The position numbers and the translations under genes are program-made. The notes beneath the pieces are model-generated. The model did no database searches. It worked only from the letters and a program-made list of their open reading frames with translations, and had not been told where the DNA came from. Positions 44,350 to 51,199 of a stretch of 64,000 bases of DNA are shown in pieces (the stretch's first letter is position 1; each line of letters starts with the position of its first letter). The stretch spans positions 3,162,001-3,226,000 of the forward strand of contig NZ_VFPL01000001.1 in NCBI RefSeq assembly GCF_006716645.1. The letters are read 5' to 3'. Source of the DNA: Arcticibacter tournemirensis (GTDB lineage Bacteria > Bacteroidota > Bacteroidia > Sphingobacteriales > Sphingobacteriaceae).

Positions 44350-45324
44350 ATGATTATGCAACAGGATGAATTATTACTAAGGGAGAACAAGGATCGTTTC
44401 GTTATCCTTCCCATCAACTATCCCAACATCTGGGAAATGTACAAAAAACATGAAGCGAGTTTCTGGACCGCCGAAGAGATTGATCTTTCGGCAGATATGA
44501 AAGACTGGCAGGGGCTTAATGATGGCGAGCGTCATTTTATTTCGCATGTACTCGCATTCTTTGCTGCCAGTGATGGTATTGTGAATGAAAACCTCGCGGT
44601 GAATTTCATGAGCGAGGTACAGGTTCCGGAAGCAAGATGTTTTTATGGATTTCAGATTATGATGGAGAATATCCATTCTGAGACTTATGCTCTGCTTATT
44701 GACACCTATGTTAAGGATCCTCAGGAAAAGGATCATTTGTTCCATGCTATCGATACAGTTCCCTGCGTGAAAGAAAAAGCCGAATGGGCATTAAAATGGA
44801 TAGAGAACGGCAGCTTTGCGGAGAGGCTTGTTGCTTTTGCTGCTGTAGAAGGCATCTTTTTTAGTGGCAGCTTCTGTTCAATCTTCTGGCTGAAAAAAAG
44901 AGGACTGATGCCCGGACTGACTTTCAGCAATGAGCTAATCTCAAGAGACGAGGGGATGCATTGCGAGTTCGCCTGCCTGCTTTACGGCATGCTAAATAAA
45001 AAATTACCTGAATCCAAAGTGAGAGAAATAATTACGGATGCAGTTAGAATAGAAAAAAAGTTTGTAACAGACGCCCTTCCGGTAGACCTCATCGGCATGA
45101 ATGCAAAGCTTATGGGGCAATATATTGAGTTCGTAGCCGACCGATGGCTTGGAGAGCTGGGTTGTGAGAAAGTTTATAATGCTTCTAACCCTTTCGATTT
45201 CATGGAAATGATCTCGCTGCAGGGAAAGACTAACTTTTTTGAAAAACGCGTTGGAGACTATCAAAAAAGTGGCGTAATGGCCGGAAATGAAGGACAGTCG
45301 TTTTCGCTTGACGAAGACTTTTAA
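44350..45324 (+). CDS. nrdB: Class Ia ribonucleoside-diphosphate reductase, beta (radical) subunit
   Basis: This 324-residue subunit carries the diiron-tyrosyl radical cofactor for aerobic dNTP synthesis. It is of the eukaryote-like R2 group: [30 protein letters not shown] with the probable radical Tyr113, the ligands E106 and H109, and [11 protein letters not shown]. The C-terminus FSLDEDF is the tail that docks into the alpha subunit. Two near ATGs (44350, 44356) could start it. It is the first gene after the cobalamin riboswitch; nrdA follows after a 197-base repeat-filled gap, the reverse of the usual nrdA-nrdB order. Confidence 0.94.
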
Positions 45325-45326
45325 TT

Positions 45327-45515
45327 TAGTATCAAGTACTTAGTATCAAGTATCAAGATGCTCTTACGCGATTTGTCTTGATATCAGATACCAGCTACGT
45401 TACTGCGCCCAGTCTTGATACTTGATACCAGATACTTGATACTAAAACTTGATACTAGATACCAGCTACTTTACTGCGGCTAGTCTTGATACTTGATACT
45501 AGCTACTTGATACTA
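45327..45515. repeat. Heptamer-periodic repeat R5 filling the nrdB-nrdA gap
   Basis: Nearly the whole gap is built of 7-base units of the GATACTT / AAGTATC type. Arms 45327-45357 and 45485-45515 form a 31-base inverted repeat with 29 matches. Inside it, 45386-45427 is repeated at 45457-45498 with a few mismatches (period 71). The array starts three bases after the nrdB stop and ends six bases before the nrdA start. Confidence 0.88.
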
Positions 45516-45521
45516 AGAAAT

Positions 45522-47900
45522 ATGTTTGTAATAAAAAGAGACGGAAGAACTGAATCCGTAAAATTCGATAAAATAACGGCTCGCATTGAGAAGCTTTGCT
45601 ATGGATTAAACCACGTGCTTGTTGACCCTGTTGATGTTGCAAAAAAAGTAATAGAAGGTATCTTTGATGGAGTAACCACTTCTGAACTCGACAATCTAGC
45701 TGCAGAGACCGCGGCATCTTTAACAACCAGGCACCCCGACTATGCACTGCTGGCATCGCGGATTGCTGTGTCAAACCTTCATAAAAACACCATAAAATCG
45801 TTCTCAGAAACGATGAAGAGGCTGTACAACTACACCGACCGTAATACCGGAAAGGCAGCGTCATTGATAGCTGATGATGTATGGGCGATAATTGAATCGA
45901 ACGCTTCACTGCTGGATAGTACTATTATATACGACCGCGATTTTGGATTCGATTATTTTGGGTTTAAAACGCTTGAGAAATCATATCTGCTTAAGCTGGA
46001 TGGACGAATTGCCGAACGGCCGCAGCACATGTTTATGCGTGTGGCAGTGGGCATCCATAAAGAAGATATTGAAAGCGCTATAAAGACCTATCATCTGATG
46101 AGTGAACGCTGGTTTACTCACGCCACTCCTACATTGTTCAATGCCGGTACGCCAAAACCTCAGATGTCGTCATGCTTTCTTCTGACCATGAAAGACGACA
46201 GCATTGAAGGGATATATGATACACTTAAACAAACCGCAAAGATTTCGCAGAGTGCCGGTGGTATTGGTTTAAGTATTCATAATGTAAGAGCAACCGGGTC
46301 GTATATAAGTGGTACTAATGGCACCAGCAACGGAATTATACCCATGCTGAAAGTCTTTAACGACACAGCAAGATATGTAGATCAGGGAGGAGGTAAACGG
46401 AAAGGCGCCTTTGCCATTTATCTTGAACCTTGGCATGCAGATGTTTTTGAATTCCTGGACCTTCGTAAAAACCATGGAAAGGAAGAAATGCGGGCACGCG
46501 ATTTATTTTACGCTTTATGGGTATCAGATCTGTTTATGAAGAGGGTAGAGGCAAACGAAGACTGGAGCTTGTTCTGCCCGCACGAAGCTCCCGGTCTGGC
46601 GGAATGCTGGGGGGAAGAGTTTGAAACTCTCTATATACAATATGAAAAGGAGGGCAGGGCCCGTAAGGTGATAAAAGCACAGGAACTTTGGTTTGCCATT
46701 TTAGATGCCCAGGTAGAAACAGGAACTCCTTACCTGTTGTACAAAGATGCTGCAAACCGAAAGTCTAATCAGCAAAATCTCGGAACAATTAAAAGTTCGA
46801 ACCTTTGCACTGAAATAATGGAATATACATCAGCAGATGAAGTGGCTGTATGTAATCTGGCTTCTCTCGCATTGCCGAGGTTTGTTTCGGAGGGCGTTTT
46901 TGATCACCAGAAGCTATATGAGGTGACTTATCAGGCGACCGTAAATCTTAATAAGATTATAGACAATAACTATTATCCCGTTGATGAAGCACGGAACTCT
47001 AATTTAAGACACCGCCCTATTGGACTAGGTGTACAGGGTCTCGCCGATGCTTTTATTCTGCTGCGTATGCCTTTTGAAAGTGAAGAAGCGAAACAGCTTA
47101 ATAAGGACATTTTTGAAACAATTTATTATGCTGCGACGACTGCTTCAAAAGACCTGGCTGTGAAAGACGGCGCGTATGAGTCATTCAAAGGATCGCCGCT
47201 CTCTGAAGGTAAGTTCCAGTTTGATTTGTGGGGAGTGAAGCCCGGCAGCGGGCGCTGGGACTGGGAAAACCTCCGTCTTGATGTGATGAACCACGGTGTG
47301 AGAAACTCCTTGCTGGTGGCGCCCATGCCGACAGCGTCGACCTCGCAGATCCTTGGTAACAATGAATGTTTTGAGCCCTATACTTCTAACATCTATACCC
47401 GCCGGGTCCTAAGCGGCGAGTTTATAATTGTAAATAAGCATCTTCTGCGCGATCTCGTAGACCTTGGTCTTTGGAGTAACGATATAAAAAACCGGATCAT
47501 TACGGCGAATGGTTCTATTCAGGACATTACCGAAATACCGCAGGACATCAAGGAGCTCTACAAAACCGTTTGGGAGATTAAGATGCGAACGATAATCGAC
47601 ATGGCTGCCGACCGCGGAGCCTATATTTGCCAGTCGCAGTCGCTTAACCTTTTCCTGAACGCTCCTAATGCTGCTAAATTAACATCCATGCACTTTTATG
47701 CATGGAAGAAGGGGCTCAAGACAGGAATGTATTATCTTCGCACCCAGGCAGCATCGCAGGCTGTTAAATTTACAGTAGAGAACCAGGGAGGGAAGAATAT
47801 GGATCCGGTAATTCCGGCACATGTTAAACAGGTAGAAGATGAAATTCCTACAGGGCCGGTTTGTTCTATGGAGGATGGCTGTATTTCCTGCTCGGGATAG
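45522..47900 (+). CDS. nrdA: Class Ia ribonucleoside-diphosphate reductase, alpha (catalytic) subunit
   Basis: This about 792-residue subunit reduces ribonucleoside diphosphates. An ATP-cone allosteric domain opens the protein ([17 protein letters not shown]), followed by the ten-stranded barrel with [15 protein letters not shown] (active-site cysteines), [17 protein letters not shown], and [20 protein letters not shown]. The C-terminal tail GCISCSG holds the reducible cysteine pair that meets thioredoxin. The start at 45522 (MFVIKRDG) is preferred; the frame runs 12 codons further upstream but only into the repeat, with no ATG. Confidence 0.95.
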
Positions 47901-47926: not shown

Positions 47927-48136
47927 ATGCTGACTAAACATGAAATCATTCCATGTGAACGCTGCGGTAAACGAATTGAGTGTAAGGCTAATTCGTTTAC
48001 ACGCTGTCAGTGTAATACCGTTCGGCTTAATCTGAATGAAGTTCAGTATATAAGCGAATTGTTCGAAGGGTGCCTATGTGCAGATTGCCTGGTTGATTTA
48101 AAAAATGAGTTTAATGCTTTAAACCATCTGCATTAA
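47927..48136 (+). CDS. Small cysteine-rich CWC-family protein
   Basis: This 69-residue protein has paired cysteines in the pattern CERCG, ECK, CQC and CLCADC, which fits the cysteine-rich CWC family (a probable small metal-binding domain of unknown function). It starts 26 bases after nrdA on the same strand, so it is likely part of the riboswitch-controlled nrdBA transcript. A role linked to redox or metal supply for the reductase is only a guess. Confidence 0.7.
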   Translation: MLTKHEIIPCERCGKRIECKANSFTRCQCNTVRLNLNEVQYISELFEGCLCADCLVDLKNEFNALNHLH

Positions 48137-48254: not shown

Positions 48255-48968
48255 CTAATTCCGGATTACAATATCAATAGTCTCACTCCTCAGGGCTGAA
48301 AGGTCAATAGGTGCAGAGCGCTGTATATTACCTAAGGTTGTGGTGTTGTGTACAATATTTTGCAGGTAATAGGTACCTCGATAGCGTCTGTCCGAGAGGT
48401 AATTGATCATTTCCTGAAGATCAGCTGTACTTAGCAATTCAGAGTGGACGGTAGTGCGTACTTCGAATGGAATGGAACTCCGGTTTAAAATATCGAATGT
48501 CTCAGCAAACTGCCTGAAACGCGCGGAACGTGTAACCTTAGCATACTTTGAAGCAGTTGCTTTAAAGTCGAGTGCAACATAATCAACATGCTGATTCTCA
48601 ATCAACCTTCTGACCATTGCAGGGTTGGACCCGTTGGTGTCTATCTTAACAAGCATTCCGAGTTTTTTTACTGCTGCAGCAAACAGATCCATGTTCTTAT
48701 GCATAGTACATTCGCCGCCGCTGAAGACCACGCCGTCAAGCAGTCCTTTCCTGGAAATAATGAATTTTAGCGTTTCAAAATAGCTGATCTTCCCCTTACC
48801 AGATACAATTTCGGGATTGTAGCAATAAGGACACTTCATATTGCAGCCTGCAAACCATATGATGCAGGCTGTTTTATCCGGGTAATCCAGTAAAGTAAAC
48901 GGAGATATGTTATAAACAGGATTGACTGAGAGTTTCTGTATGGAAAGGAATTCGTTGTTTGTGTTCAC
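48255..48968 (-). CDS. nrdG: Anaerobic ribonucleotide reductase activating protein (radical SAM)
   Basis: This about 237-residue enzyme uses S-adenosylmethionine to put the glycyl radical on NrdD. The radical SAM cluster motif is CNMKCPYC in WFAGCNMKCPYCYNPEIV, preceded by ISPFTLLDYPDKTACI; VFSGGECTMHK holds the GGE motif. No ATG is available in the N-terminal region. I chose the GTG at 48968; the frame also has a TTG at 48995. Either start lies inside the small glycyl-radical frame upstream, in another phase, so translation of the two is coupled. The length fits the NrdG2-like group. Confidence 0.88.
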   Translation of the reverse strand: MNTNNEFLSIQKLSVNPVYNISPFTLLDYPDKTACIIWFAGCNMKCPYCYNPEIVSGKGKISYFETLKFIISRKGLLDGVVFSGGECTMHKNMDLFAAAVKKLGMLVKIDTNGSNPAMVRRLIENQHVDYVALDFKATASKYAKVTRSARFRQFAETFDILNRSSIPFEVRTTVHSELLSTADLQEMINYLSDRRYRGTYYLQNIVHNTTTLGNIQRSAPIDLSALRSETIDIVIRN

Positions 48969-49092
48969 CTTTTTTGCCCGTGTTAAAACTTTCAACTGGT
49001 CTGTGATACCCCATTACCCGGGTATAAACAAGACATTTGTTTCTTTTCGATTCGTTTAGAGATAGTAATTCTTGCTCTTTTTTAGTTTTCAT
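48910..49092 (-). CDS. Separately encoded glycyl-radical segment of NrdD
   Basis: This 60-codon frame encodes the part missing from the nrdD product. It reads YTRVMGYHRPVESFN, then TGKKGEHKQR, which corresponds to the radical-bearing loop at the C-terminus of class III reductases (RVxGY, then FNxGKxxExKxR); the radical would sit on Gly28. Its ATG overlaps the nrdD stop region by 11 bases in the +1 phase, and its end overlaps the nrdG start. Either nrdD is naturally split with a small radical subunit, or one base is missing: a single extra A in the GAAAAC run just before the nrdD stop would join both frames into one protein of about 755 residues. The sequence alone cannot decide between a split gene, a mutation and a sequencing error. 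Confidence 0.8.
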   Translation of the reverse strand: MKTKKEQELLSLNESKRNKCLVYTRVMGYHRPVESFNTGKKGEHKQRIPFHTETLSQSCL

Positions 49093-51199
49093 TTTCTGTT
49101 ATCAGTTTATGTTGTAATTCATTTAATAACTGGCCGTCGCAAAGTGGGCAGTACTCGTGTTCTCCGTTAAGATATCCATGTACCGGGCAAATGCTGAAAA
49201 CAGGAGTTACTGTTATGTACGGCAGCCGGAAATTAGAAAGCACCTTTTTAACGAGTTTACGGCAAGCTTCCGGCGAACTAAGCCTTTCACGCATGTAGAG
49301 GTGTAAAACGGTACCACCGGTATATTTGCATTGCAATTCATCCTGCAACAGCAGCGCTTCGAATGGGTCGTCGGTATAATCCACGGGGATCTGCGAGCTG
49401 TTTGTATAATAAATATTCGCGTCTTCACCCGCCTGAATAATGTCAGGAAAGCGTTTCCTGTCTTCCCTGGCGAAGCGATAAGTAGTACCTTCAGCAGGCG
49501 TTGCTTCGAGGTTATACAGGTTGCCGGTTTCTTCCTGAAAGCTGGTCATACGCTCGCGGATATAGTCGAGTAGCCCAGCAGCAAAGTTTCTTCCTTCTTC
49601 TGTTACGATGGAAATGCTATCGTCGCTGAAGTTCCGGATCATCTCATTGATTCCGTTTACGCCGATGGTTGAAAAATGATTCCTGAAATGGGTGAGATAT
49701 CGCCGGGTGTAAGGATAGAGACCACGATCAAACATTTCCTGAATAAATTTTCGTTTCTTCTCGAGAGTTGAGCCGGCAGTGTTCAAGAGATAGTCCAGTC
49801 TTTCATACAAAGCCTTTTTGTTCCCTTTGTACACAAAGCCAAGCCGGGCCATATTTATCGTTACTACCCCTATGCTTCCTGTCATTTCAGCGCTGCCGAA
49901 TAAGCCGTTCCCTCTCTTAAGCAGCTCACGCAGATCAAGCTGCAGCCGGCAGCACATGCTCCGTACAGCATTGGGCTTGTAGGCATTTGGGTTTTCAACT
50001 CTATTTCCGTTCTCATCTGTCGTATACTGGCTGCCTATAAAGTTTTGAAAATAAGAAGAGCCGATTTTAGCCGTATTTTCAAACAGCAGGTCGGTATTTT
50101 CGCCGTGCCAGTCGAAGTCTTCAGTGATGTTGACCGTTGGAATGGGGAAGGTGAACGGCTGTCCGTTTGCATCGCCTTCGGTCATTACCGTATAATATGC
50201 TTTGTTTATCAGATTCATTTCATCCTGGAAATGTCCGTAACACAGATCCTCCAGGCATCCGGCGCCTTTTTCATGTGCCGCCCTTTCAAGTTCAGGGTCA
50301 TTAATTCCGCTAAAAAGATGAATGTCCTTTTTTGTGGGAATCTGACCTTTAAGATCCTCGGGGACCGTCCAGTCGATAGTAATATTAGTAAAAGGCGATT
50401 GCCCCCAGCGGGCAGGAACATTCAGATTATAGACAAAGCTTCTCACTGCCTTCAGAATATCACCATAAGTGAGCTTATCCTTAAAAACATAAGGAGCGAG
50501 ATAGGTATCGAACGAACTGAAGGCCTGAGCTCCGGCCCACTCACTTTGCAAAATACCCAGGAAGTTTGACATCTGTCCCAGCGCTTCCCTGAAGTGGCTT
50601 GGCGGGGTGCTTTCAACCCGACCTCTCACTCCATTAAAGCCCTCATTGAGTAAAGCCCGGAGGCTCCATCCGGCGCAATAGCCAGTCAGGCAATCGAGAT
50701 CGTGAATATGGATATCACCGTTCCTGTGTGCATAGCCCTCTTCTTTTGAATAAACCTTATCCAGCCAGTAGTTGGCTATTACCTTACCTGCCACGTTGTT
50801 AACCATTCCGGCGTTGGAGTAGGAGGTATTTGCATTTGCATTAATCCTCCAGTCGGTTTGATTAATGTATTCCTCTATAGTCTGAGAGCTGTCTACAAAA
50901 GTCGTATCATCTGCTAAACCTTTTATGTGTTCTCTTTGCAGTTTCCTGGTATGCCGGTAAAGCATAAAAGAGCGCATCACACCGAAATATCTACCCGAGA
51001 AAAGCTCCTGCTCGATGATGTCCTGAATTTCCTCTACTGCCCAGACCTCTTTTTCAGAAAGTTTTTTCAGGGAGTTTTTAAGTATTGATTCGTCGCAGGT
51101 AATATTTACACTTTTGAACCCTTTCTCAATGGCATCTTTGATCTTGTAAGGTTTGAAGAGTTCGAACTCTCCATTTCGTTTAATTACGTAGTTCACCAT
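49082..51199 (-). CDS. nrdD: Anaerobic (class III) ribonucleoside-triphosphate reductase, without its glycyl-radical end
   Basis: This 705-residue protein reduces ribonucleotides under anoxia. It opens with an ATP-cone (YVIKRNGEFELFKPYKIKDAI), then the NrdD barrel (HIHDLDCLTGYCAGWSLR, FNTFSS-like AQAFSSFDTYLAPYV, VNITEDFDW, CCRLQLDLRELLKRGNGLFG) and ends with the four-cysteine zinc site CPVHGYLNGEHEYCPLC. The frame stops 12 residues after the zinc site, before the radical glycine loop, which is found in the next overlapping frame. A cobalamin riboswitch precedes it on the same strand. The protein should be inactive unless the separate segment is supplied. Confidence 0.9.
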   Translation of the reverse strand: MVNYVIKRNGEFELFKPYKIKDAIEKGFKSVNITCDESILKNSLKKLSEKEVWAVEEIQDIIEQELFSGRYFGVMRSFMLYRHTRKLQREHIKGLADDTTFVDSSQTIEEYINQTDWRINANANTSYSNAGMVNNVAGKVIANYWLDKVYSKEEGYAHRNGDIHIHDLDCLTGYCAGWSLRALLNEGFNGVRGRVESTPPSHFREALGQMSNFLGILQSEWAGAQAFSSFDTYLAPYVFKDKLTYGDILKAVRSFVYNLNVPARWGQSPFTNITIDWTVPEDLKGQIPTKKDIHLFSGINDPELERAAHEKGAGCLEDLCYGHFQDEMNLINKAYYTVMTEGDANGQPFTFPIPTVNITEDFDWHGENTDLLFENTAKIGSSYFQNFIGSQYTTDENGNRVENPNAYKPNAVRSMCCRLQLDLRELLKRGNGLFGSAEMTGSIGVVTINMARLGFVYKGNKKALYERLDYLLNTAGSTLEKKRKFIQEMFDRGLYPYTRRYLTHFRNHFSTIGVNGINEMIRNFSDDSISIVTEEGRNFAAGLLDYIRERMTSFQEETGNLYNLEATPAEGTTYRFAREDRKRFPDIIQAGEDANIYYTNSSQIPVDYTDDPFEALLLQDELQCKYTGGTVLHLYMRERLSSPEACRKLVKKVLSNFRLPYITVTPVFSICPVHGYLNGEHEYCPLCDGQLLNELQHKLITENEN

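Follow-up and report, generated by a model that had tools for sequence, protein, structure and literature searches.

A probable two-chain class III ribonucleotide reductase with its glycyl-radical loop on a separate small gene in Arcticibacter tournemirensis

Class III ribonucleotide reductases are treated as one catalytic chain, NrdD, and an activase, NrdG. A 64,000-nucleotide stretch of the Arcticibacter tournemirensis genome (contig NZ_VFPL01000001.1, positions 3,162,001 to 3,226,000; hereafter the window, in whose own numbering all positions are given) raises the question of whether this must be so, as its nrdD gene ends without a glycyl-radical loop and the loop is encoded by a small open reading frame (ORF) directly downstream. 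An earlier reading made from the letters alone, which we refer to as the sequence-only reading, offered two explanations, a true split enzyme with a small radical subunit or the loss of one base. We consider it highly probable that the locus encodes a working class III ribonucleotide reductase made of two chains, one large and catalytic, the other a small radical subunit. By sequence comparison the split has the look of a functional arrangement rather than of an error in sequencing.

The two chains and the frames that encode them

The locus is read from the minus strand in the order nrdD, small ORF, nrdG, with each gene overlapping the next. The nrdD gene (49082-51199) encodes a chain of 705 amino acids with an ATP-cone (amino acids 4-86), an NRDD barrel (amino acids 122-688) and a zinc ribbon. 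Pfam analysis gave matches to NRDD (1.5e-161, profile positions 2-528 of 562) and ATP-cone (9.9e-16), and the NCBIfam family of the chain was NF006126 (1074 bits). An alignment of 41 large chains showed that C175, C416 and C417 were invariant in all of them (41/41); from the alignment we take C175 to be the first-strand cysteine, and C416 and C417 (MCCR motif, 49949-49954) to be the finger-loop cysteines. C671, H674, C684 and C687, which form the predicted zinc site CPVHGYLNGEHEYCPLC (49139-49189) characteristic of class III enzymes, were also invariant among the large chains. This was the last conserved block, as the invariant columns stopped at D688, directly after the zinc site, and the sequence beyond was variable. 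The chain ended in ...CPLCDGQLLNELQHKLITENEN. The sequence-only reading was right that the loop is absent from it, but the chain runs 18 residues past the last zinc cysteine (C687 of 705), not the 12 that had been stated; in split large chains this tail was 9-32 residues long (n=121). An AlphaFold model of the large chain had a pLDDT of 72 and its top 36 structure matches were class III reductases.

The small ORF (48910-49092, 60 amino acids) lies in a frame offset by +1 from nrdD and carries the glycyl-radical loop RVMGYHRPVESFNTGKKGEHKQR; RVMGYHRP and TGKKGEHKQR are both present, as the sequence-only reading had reported. It matched NRDD (4.3e-07) at profile positions 530-561 of 562 and, as this match starts just where that of the large chain ends, the ORF is not there by chance. 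The single-chain NrdD proteins of Thermotoga maritima (4coi), Prevotella copri (8p23) and phage T4 (1h78) share with the window the barrel family, the finger-loop cysteines, the zinc site, the radical-loop sequence and an NrdG alongside; they differ in having the radical loop at the C-terminus of the NrdD chain itself. When the fused NrdD of a congener (designated G003) was used as a bridge, RVMGY of the small chain aligned with the radical-loop stretch in 4coi and 8p23. The bridge was required for the placement, as no related solved structure was found with the small ORF or its alignment alone. In the accessible part of its description, the P. copri enzyme has its radical placed at Gly711 (PMC11226230). 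The presumed radical glycine of the small chain, from its sequence and the alignment through G003, is G28 (codon GGG, 49009-49011). The third gene, nrdG (48255-48995), encodes a radical-SAM activase (NrdG2; TIGR02495, 1.6e-59) and overlaps the 3'-part of the small gene. Since the radical loop, elsewhere on the main polypeptide, lies on a separate ORF, the window NrdD is filed by its domains as a two-chain class III variant.

On the base-loss explanation, an ordinary fused nrdD was interrupted, either by an error in sequencing or assembly or by the recent loss of one base. This explanation is favoured by the existence of the fused congener and by the way the two frames abut, and the sequence-only reading had argued that one restored A would join them. 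The frame arithmetic showed otherwise: an added base enters the frame at 49088, which meets two stops and continues as nrdG, and so misses the small frame. The small frame begins at 49089, and joining it to nrdD would require one base fewer or two more. Similarly, the small-gene ATG (49092-49090) does not overlap the nrdD stop (TAA, 49084-49082), as had been thought, but lies upstream of it, giving an overlap of 11 nucleotides between the two ORFs (49082-49092). A joined protein would also need about 40 residues (18 + 24, less any overlap) to connect its last zinc cysteine to the radical motif, compared to 8-16 residues in eight fused relatives. As the same split recurs in other phyla and in 33 of the 35 family genomes with NrdD (see below), we regard an error or base loss as extremely improbable.

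Comparison with other genomes suggested that the small gene is maintained. The small ORF shared 71-78% identity with the separate ORFs of three congeners, and small chains in general had a variable N-terminus followed by a near-invariant block, RxKCLVYTRVMGYHRPVESFNxGKxxEHxxRxxF, with 24 invariant columns across 20 chosen chains. When the window small gene was compared with 10 others over 35 codons, some of which also code for nrdG, silent divergence per site (pS) was 0.50-1.07 (saturated) and protein-changing divergence (pN) 0.066-0.140, so that the small gene looks to be under purifying selection. A decaying operon in which neither piece is functional could be proposed, since the host has a class I reductase as well. 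This is very improbable, however, given the few protein changes against many silent ones in the small gene, its invariant columns, the conserved active-site cysteines of the large chain and the open nrdG.

Distribution and anatomy of the split

Among 100 relatives the radical segment was present in nine, as a separate frame of 58-68 amino acids in eight (the window genome counted) and fused in one, the congener G003. The sequence-only reading had proposed asking whether close relatives are fused or split, and analysis of 399 family genomes answered in favour of its split enzyme with a small radical subunit: a true NrdD was found in 35, of which 33 were split, one was fused (G003) and one was cut by a contig end (G348). 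The 395 genomes of the class sample gave 22 matches, comprising 11 split (two of them also counted in the family sample), ten in one open frame and one (G665) with internal stops. Six of the ten one-frame proteins were checked with hidden Markov models (HMMs) and proved to be far NrdD types, scoring 114-142 bits compared to 1450 for the fused G003 protein.

A similar picture was obtained from 150 Campylobacterota genomes, 75 of which matched. These were 58 split genomes (57 called by Pfam and one, G891, by HMM), two with a fused protein of the same type (G925 and G850), 14 with a higher-scoring protein in one frame, and one partial (G909), which, like G348, was counted neither as split nor as fused. 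Three of the 14 one-frame proteins were checked and all were of the far type. Sixteen of the 58 split genomes showed one frame with one or two internal stops; in the two of these that were opened (G779 and G900) the stop separates the large from the small part. G792 and G859 were considered as re-fusions and rejected, as a stop was found between the parts, and they are hence split.

A scan of 84,980 species, with one genome each, revealed at least 587 confirmed relatives. Of the best 80 of these, 79 were split and one, Campylobacter showae (L152), had the small gene without a large gene alongside; the scan is no measure of how frequent the fused form is, because its search patterns were derived from split members. 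A motif count was also set aside as evidence, one search pattern having demanded the motif. Among the matches listed, the Bacteroidota hosts named were Flavobacterium, Algoriphagus, Belliella, Sphingobacterium, Pedobacter and Chitinophaga, and the other named hosts were Balneolaceae and, in the Campylobacterota, Campylobacter, Sulfurimonas, Aliarcobacter and Poseidonibacter. The split form was also encoded on plasmids, proteobacterial ones among them, of Cupriavidus, Bradyrhizobium, Shinella, Azospira, Sulfuricystis, Cereibacter, Aquabacterium, Paracoccus and Sulfuricurvum, whereas the fused form was present in Actinomyces oris, Acidiphilium and Geoalkalibacter. The plasmid of Cupriavidus necator has the order large gene, small gene, nrdG, and complete denitrification in this organism is reported to require nrdDG (PMC2864759, citing Siedow 1999). 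Thiothrix (L208), in which the large chain itself lies in two frames, was left out of the counts. On a contig labelled Epsilonproteobacteria (L113), the small chain was Arcticibacter-like by eye, which may reflect contamination of a metagenome-assembled genome. Genome G092 encodes its main NrdD in a single full frame and has an additional frame of 108 amino acids (L061:1483-1809, minus strand) with a zinc site and the radical loop RVIGYMKR. This additional frame belongs to another NrdD type, stands directly before an NrdG-like frame and may be left over from an NrdD of that type or be a spare part for it.

The position of the small gene varied between loci. In 42 split loci its frame relative to nrdD was +1 in 29, +2 in 11 and 0 in two, and its ATG lay between 41 nucleotides inside nrdD and 321 nucleotides past the nrdD stop, with overlap in 35 of the 42. 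In all 79 named split loci (79/79) the ATG of the small chain was 18-34 residues ahead of the motif. In G864 (Campylobacterota) the large gene is at 104 kb and the small gene with nrdG at 9 kb of a 1.85-Mb contig, about 95 kb apart, and in C. showae the large and small genes are on different contigs. G916 and G893 have another gene between the large gene and the small gene with nrdG. The small gene stays beside nrdG in all four of these genomes, as expected if NrdG acts on the small chain; in G917 the order is large gene, nrdG, small gene.

These data also bear on whether a single fused protein is still made, through programmed ribosomal frameshifting or stop read-through. The overlap of the ORFs in the window would suit this explanation, as would the 16 Campylobacterota genomes with both parts in one frame and one or two stops inside. 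It does not agree with a frame relation that may be 0, +1 or +2, with spacing from overlap to hundreds of bases, with the non-adjacent genes of G864 and C. showae or with an ATG ahead of the motif in every named split locus, and we give it next to no probability.

A tree of 48 of the 160 collected large chains (L212 was left out) required at least seven changes between split and fused forms (six to seven in bootstrap replicates; starred branches force five). The fused G003 chain nested within the split Arcticibacter clade with support of 100/95, and the fused G925 and G850 chains nested among split Campylobacterota. The split or fused label was no more clustered on the tree than in shuffles, and the deep order is unsure owing to long branches. 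That natural fusions are nested in this way is evidence for the two chains acting as a single unit. The sequences compared show how the domains are divided, that this division is conserved, that the two genes are independent in some genomes and that fusions nest among split forms.

In the literature searched, in which coverage of reductases was partial, we found no account of an NrdD whose radical subunit is a separate protein. Both chains had already been named by NCBI automated annotation, the large chain as 'ribonucleoside triphosphate reductase' and the small chain as 'nrdD' in RefSeq, with the small chain hypothetical in one GenBank record. As far as the available text goes, phage nrdD genes are reported to occur in pieces, and some cellular organisms to hold split ribonucleotide reductase genes, which are given no detail (PMC3653736). 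The phage cases described there are introns, inteins or unexplained fragmentation, with no free radical subunit in the parts available. In Pseudomonas aeruginosa, the accessible portions of two papers describe NrdJa and NrdJb, two adjacent ORFs that together encode the catalytic chain of a reductase (PMC4009431, PMC4860495). The two-ORF catalytic chain resembles nrdD and the small gene of the window. NrdJa/NrdJb differs in being a class II, B12-dependent enzyme without a glycyl radical.

Subunit or spare part, and the mobile copies

The sequence-only reading likened the small protein to YfiD (GrcA), the autonomous glycyl radical cofactor of pyruvate formate-lyase, which is likewise a small stand-alone glycyl-radical protein and whose T4 counterpart is Y06I. 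From the part of the text available, such cofactors replace the oxygen-cleaved part of an enzyme (PMC12288474, which does not use the name YfiD). The comparison is apt as an idea but does not extend to kinship, as YfiD belongs to the Gly_radical family and the window small chain to NRDD: it had no match to Gly_radical (PF01228), and NRDD was the only family above the cut-off. A profile search of the whole genome found no NRDD match beyond the one loopless large chain and the one small chain. The sole PF01228 match of the genome was an ordinary frame of 750 amino acids elsewhere, with a radical domain of the pyruvate formate-lyase type. A YfiD-type protein has a complete enzyme of the same kind in its cell, and the window genome provides none; the small chain is the only carrier and not a repair copy. 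Because it is the only NRDD-family radical-loop carrier found in the genome, the small chain is, as far as the genome sequence tells, a subunit here and not a spare.

A spare-part role, in which the small protein repairs a complete NrdD in the way that YfiD serves pyruvate formate-lyase, would agree with the unlinked extra copies near prophage genes in G864, G900 and C. showae, with phage contigs that carry the small gene without a large chain and with an orphan small gene on an Allochromatium plasmid, which had no large gene within the 7 kb of plasmid examined. It is nevertheless quite improbable, as a complete NrdD was found neither in the window genome nor in the 33 split family genomes and the Gly_radical family, to which YfiD and pyruvate formate-lyase belong, was not matched by the small chain.

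We found three small genes for one large gene in G864, and two small genes each in C. showae and G900. The extra copies adjoin phage genes, namely a holin-like gene (under the Pfam cut-off) and DUF5675 in G864 and a terminase in G900; in C. showae a baseplate J gene lies about 4 kb away. In IMG/VR, 49 loci contained the small gene and 46 of these had no large chain in the stretch examined. When 41 of the 49 viral records were searched whole, 38 had no large chain, although this absence is not proof as many of the records may be fragments. The closest viral small chain (L252) was 81% identical to that of the window over 48 residues. PHROG 4132, a family of unknown function, was matched by all five small chains scanned, that of the window and four phage copies. 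The 12 genes scanned directly downstream of phage copies comprised six of endolysin families, one of an unknown-function family and five without a match. A protein search of the phage collection with the window small chain found no free copy in an annotated isolate and gave two matches, one in a fused frame and the other an ANMV-1 virus gene annotated as a reductase; with two phage copies as queries, one found nothing in this collection and the other the same ANMV-1 gene.

Three viral loci showed further features. A phage small gene (L296:2956-3126) has an in-frame TGA at the glycine of the family (NxGK), which would be read as Gly under code 25 and points to an SR1/Gracilibacteria-type bacterium as host. 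In a gut phage, an NrdD that has its own radical loop (L211:2459-4888) extends beyond it into a CPNC segment that is glutaredoxin-like by eye and is possibly a built-in reductant. A viral nrdD frame of 964 amino acids (L281:868-3759) contains, after its barrel and before its zinc site, about 366 unmatched amino acids that may be an intein.

By analogy with YfiD and pyruvate formate-lyase, the extra small copies near prophage genes and the 46 of 49 viral loci without a large chain suggest that the radical part may be swappable. A bolder proposal, to which we give slightly less than an even chance, is that the detached subunit is an interchangeable mobile part which phages and some plasmids carry alone, sometimes just before an endolysin gene, and which (re)activates the split reductase of the host during low-oxygen infection. 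PHROG 4132 would then be a phage-borne radical cofactor of ribonucleotide reductase.

Gene neighbourhood, oxygen and the working of the two chains

Judged from the genes of the window, the host also has an aerobic (class I) enzyme, with a beta-like gene (44350-45324, plus strand; named from reading its translation) and an alpha-chain gene (45486-47900, plus strand; TIGR02506, 1.2e-218). A gene for a small cysteine-rich CWC protein (47927-48136) lies between the class I nrdA and the end of nrdG. The nrdG start codon is unsure, either TTG at 48995 or GTG at 48968, as there is no ATG before the conserved core; the same lack of an ATG was seen in 62 of the 104 loci checked, the window counted in. 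Scans for sigma-70 promoters and terminators gave hits no more numerous than in shuffled sequence.

In the two-chain enzyme that we propose, the large chain would supply the ATP-cone, barrel, active-site cysteines and zinc ribbon. NrdG would abstract a hydrogen from G28 of the small chain, and docking of this chain in the barrel would bring the radical within reach of the finger-loop cysteines. According to the accessible part of one account, a glycyl-radical chain is cleaved by oxygen at its glycine (PMC12288474), and a separate carrier of 60 amino acids would thus be cheap to replace: oxygen or nitric oxide (NO) would destroy this protein only, and not a chain of 700 amino acids. Such cheap replacement of the damaged part is what we think the likeliest benefit of the split, a suggestion we make tentatively and would put somewhat below even.

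The neighbourhood of nrdD in other genomes is consistent with this suggestion in part. In C. necator a nitric-oxide reductase lies upstream of the nrdD locus. COX1-family genes of NorB size were located within 10 kb of nrdD in five of nine split Bacteroidia; an NCBIfam scan of four small COX1-family ORFs near nrdD named none of them NorB, and in the window genome the COX1 survey found no COX1-family gene near nrdD. Four other Bacteroidia regions (L304-L307) with a split nrdD near a COX1-family gene contained Rrf2 regulators (3/4), the iron-sulfur repair protein RIC (2/4) and a confirmed cytochrome c (1/4). This neighbourhood fits oxygen or NO damage, and we infer the connection from it.

Several observations weigh against our interpretation. 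In the Bacteroidia set, a COX1-family oxidase was present in all ten split genomes (10/10) and in none of the 11 others (0/11); these 11 have other NrdD types (six by HMM, four by Pfam score) or, in G665, a frame with internal stops, and fused G003 has the oxidase too. The pattern is confounded with NrdD type and tests the benefit weakly. Among Campylobacterota genomes the oxidase was present in all fused ones (16/16) and in 10 of the 14 that are split, a distribution that argues against a straightforward link to oxygen. The AlphaFold model, being of the large chain alone and of middling quality, is silent on docking, and the case for a physical interaction of the chains is drawn from homology and the natural fusions. 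We infer that both chains are made, that they dock, that activation and catalysis proceed in trans and that the arrangement is of benefit.

A widespread two-chain form would make the radical carrier separable and would allow its activation, docking and oxygen damage to be studied without the barrel. The split group would be misjudged wherever annotation or a reductase phylogeny demands a radical motif on the main chain. A phage protein family whose function is unknown gains a possible role from the arrangement, which also suggests a way in which bacteria exposed to oxygen might keep an oxygen-fragile enzyme in use.

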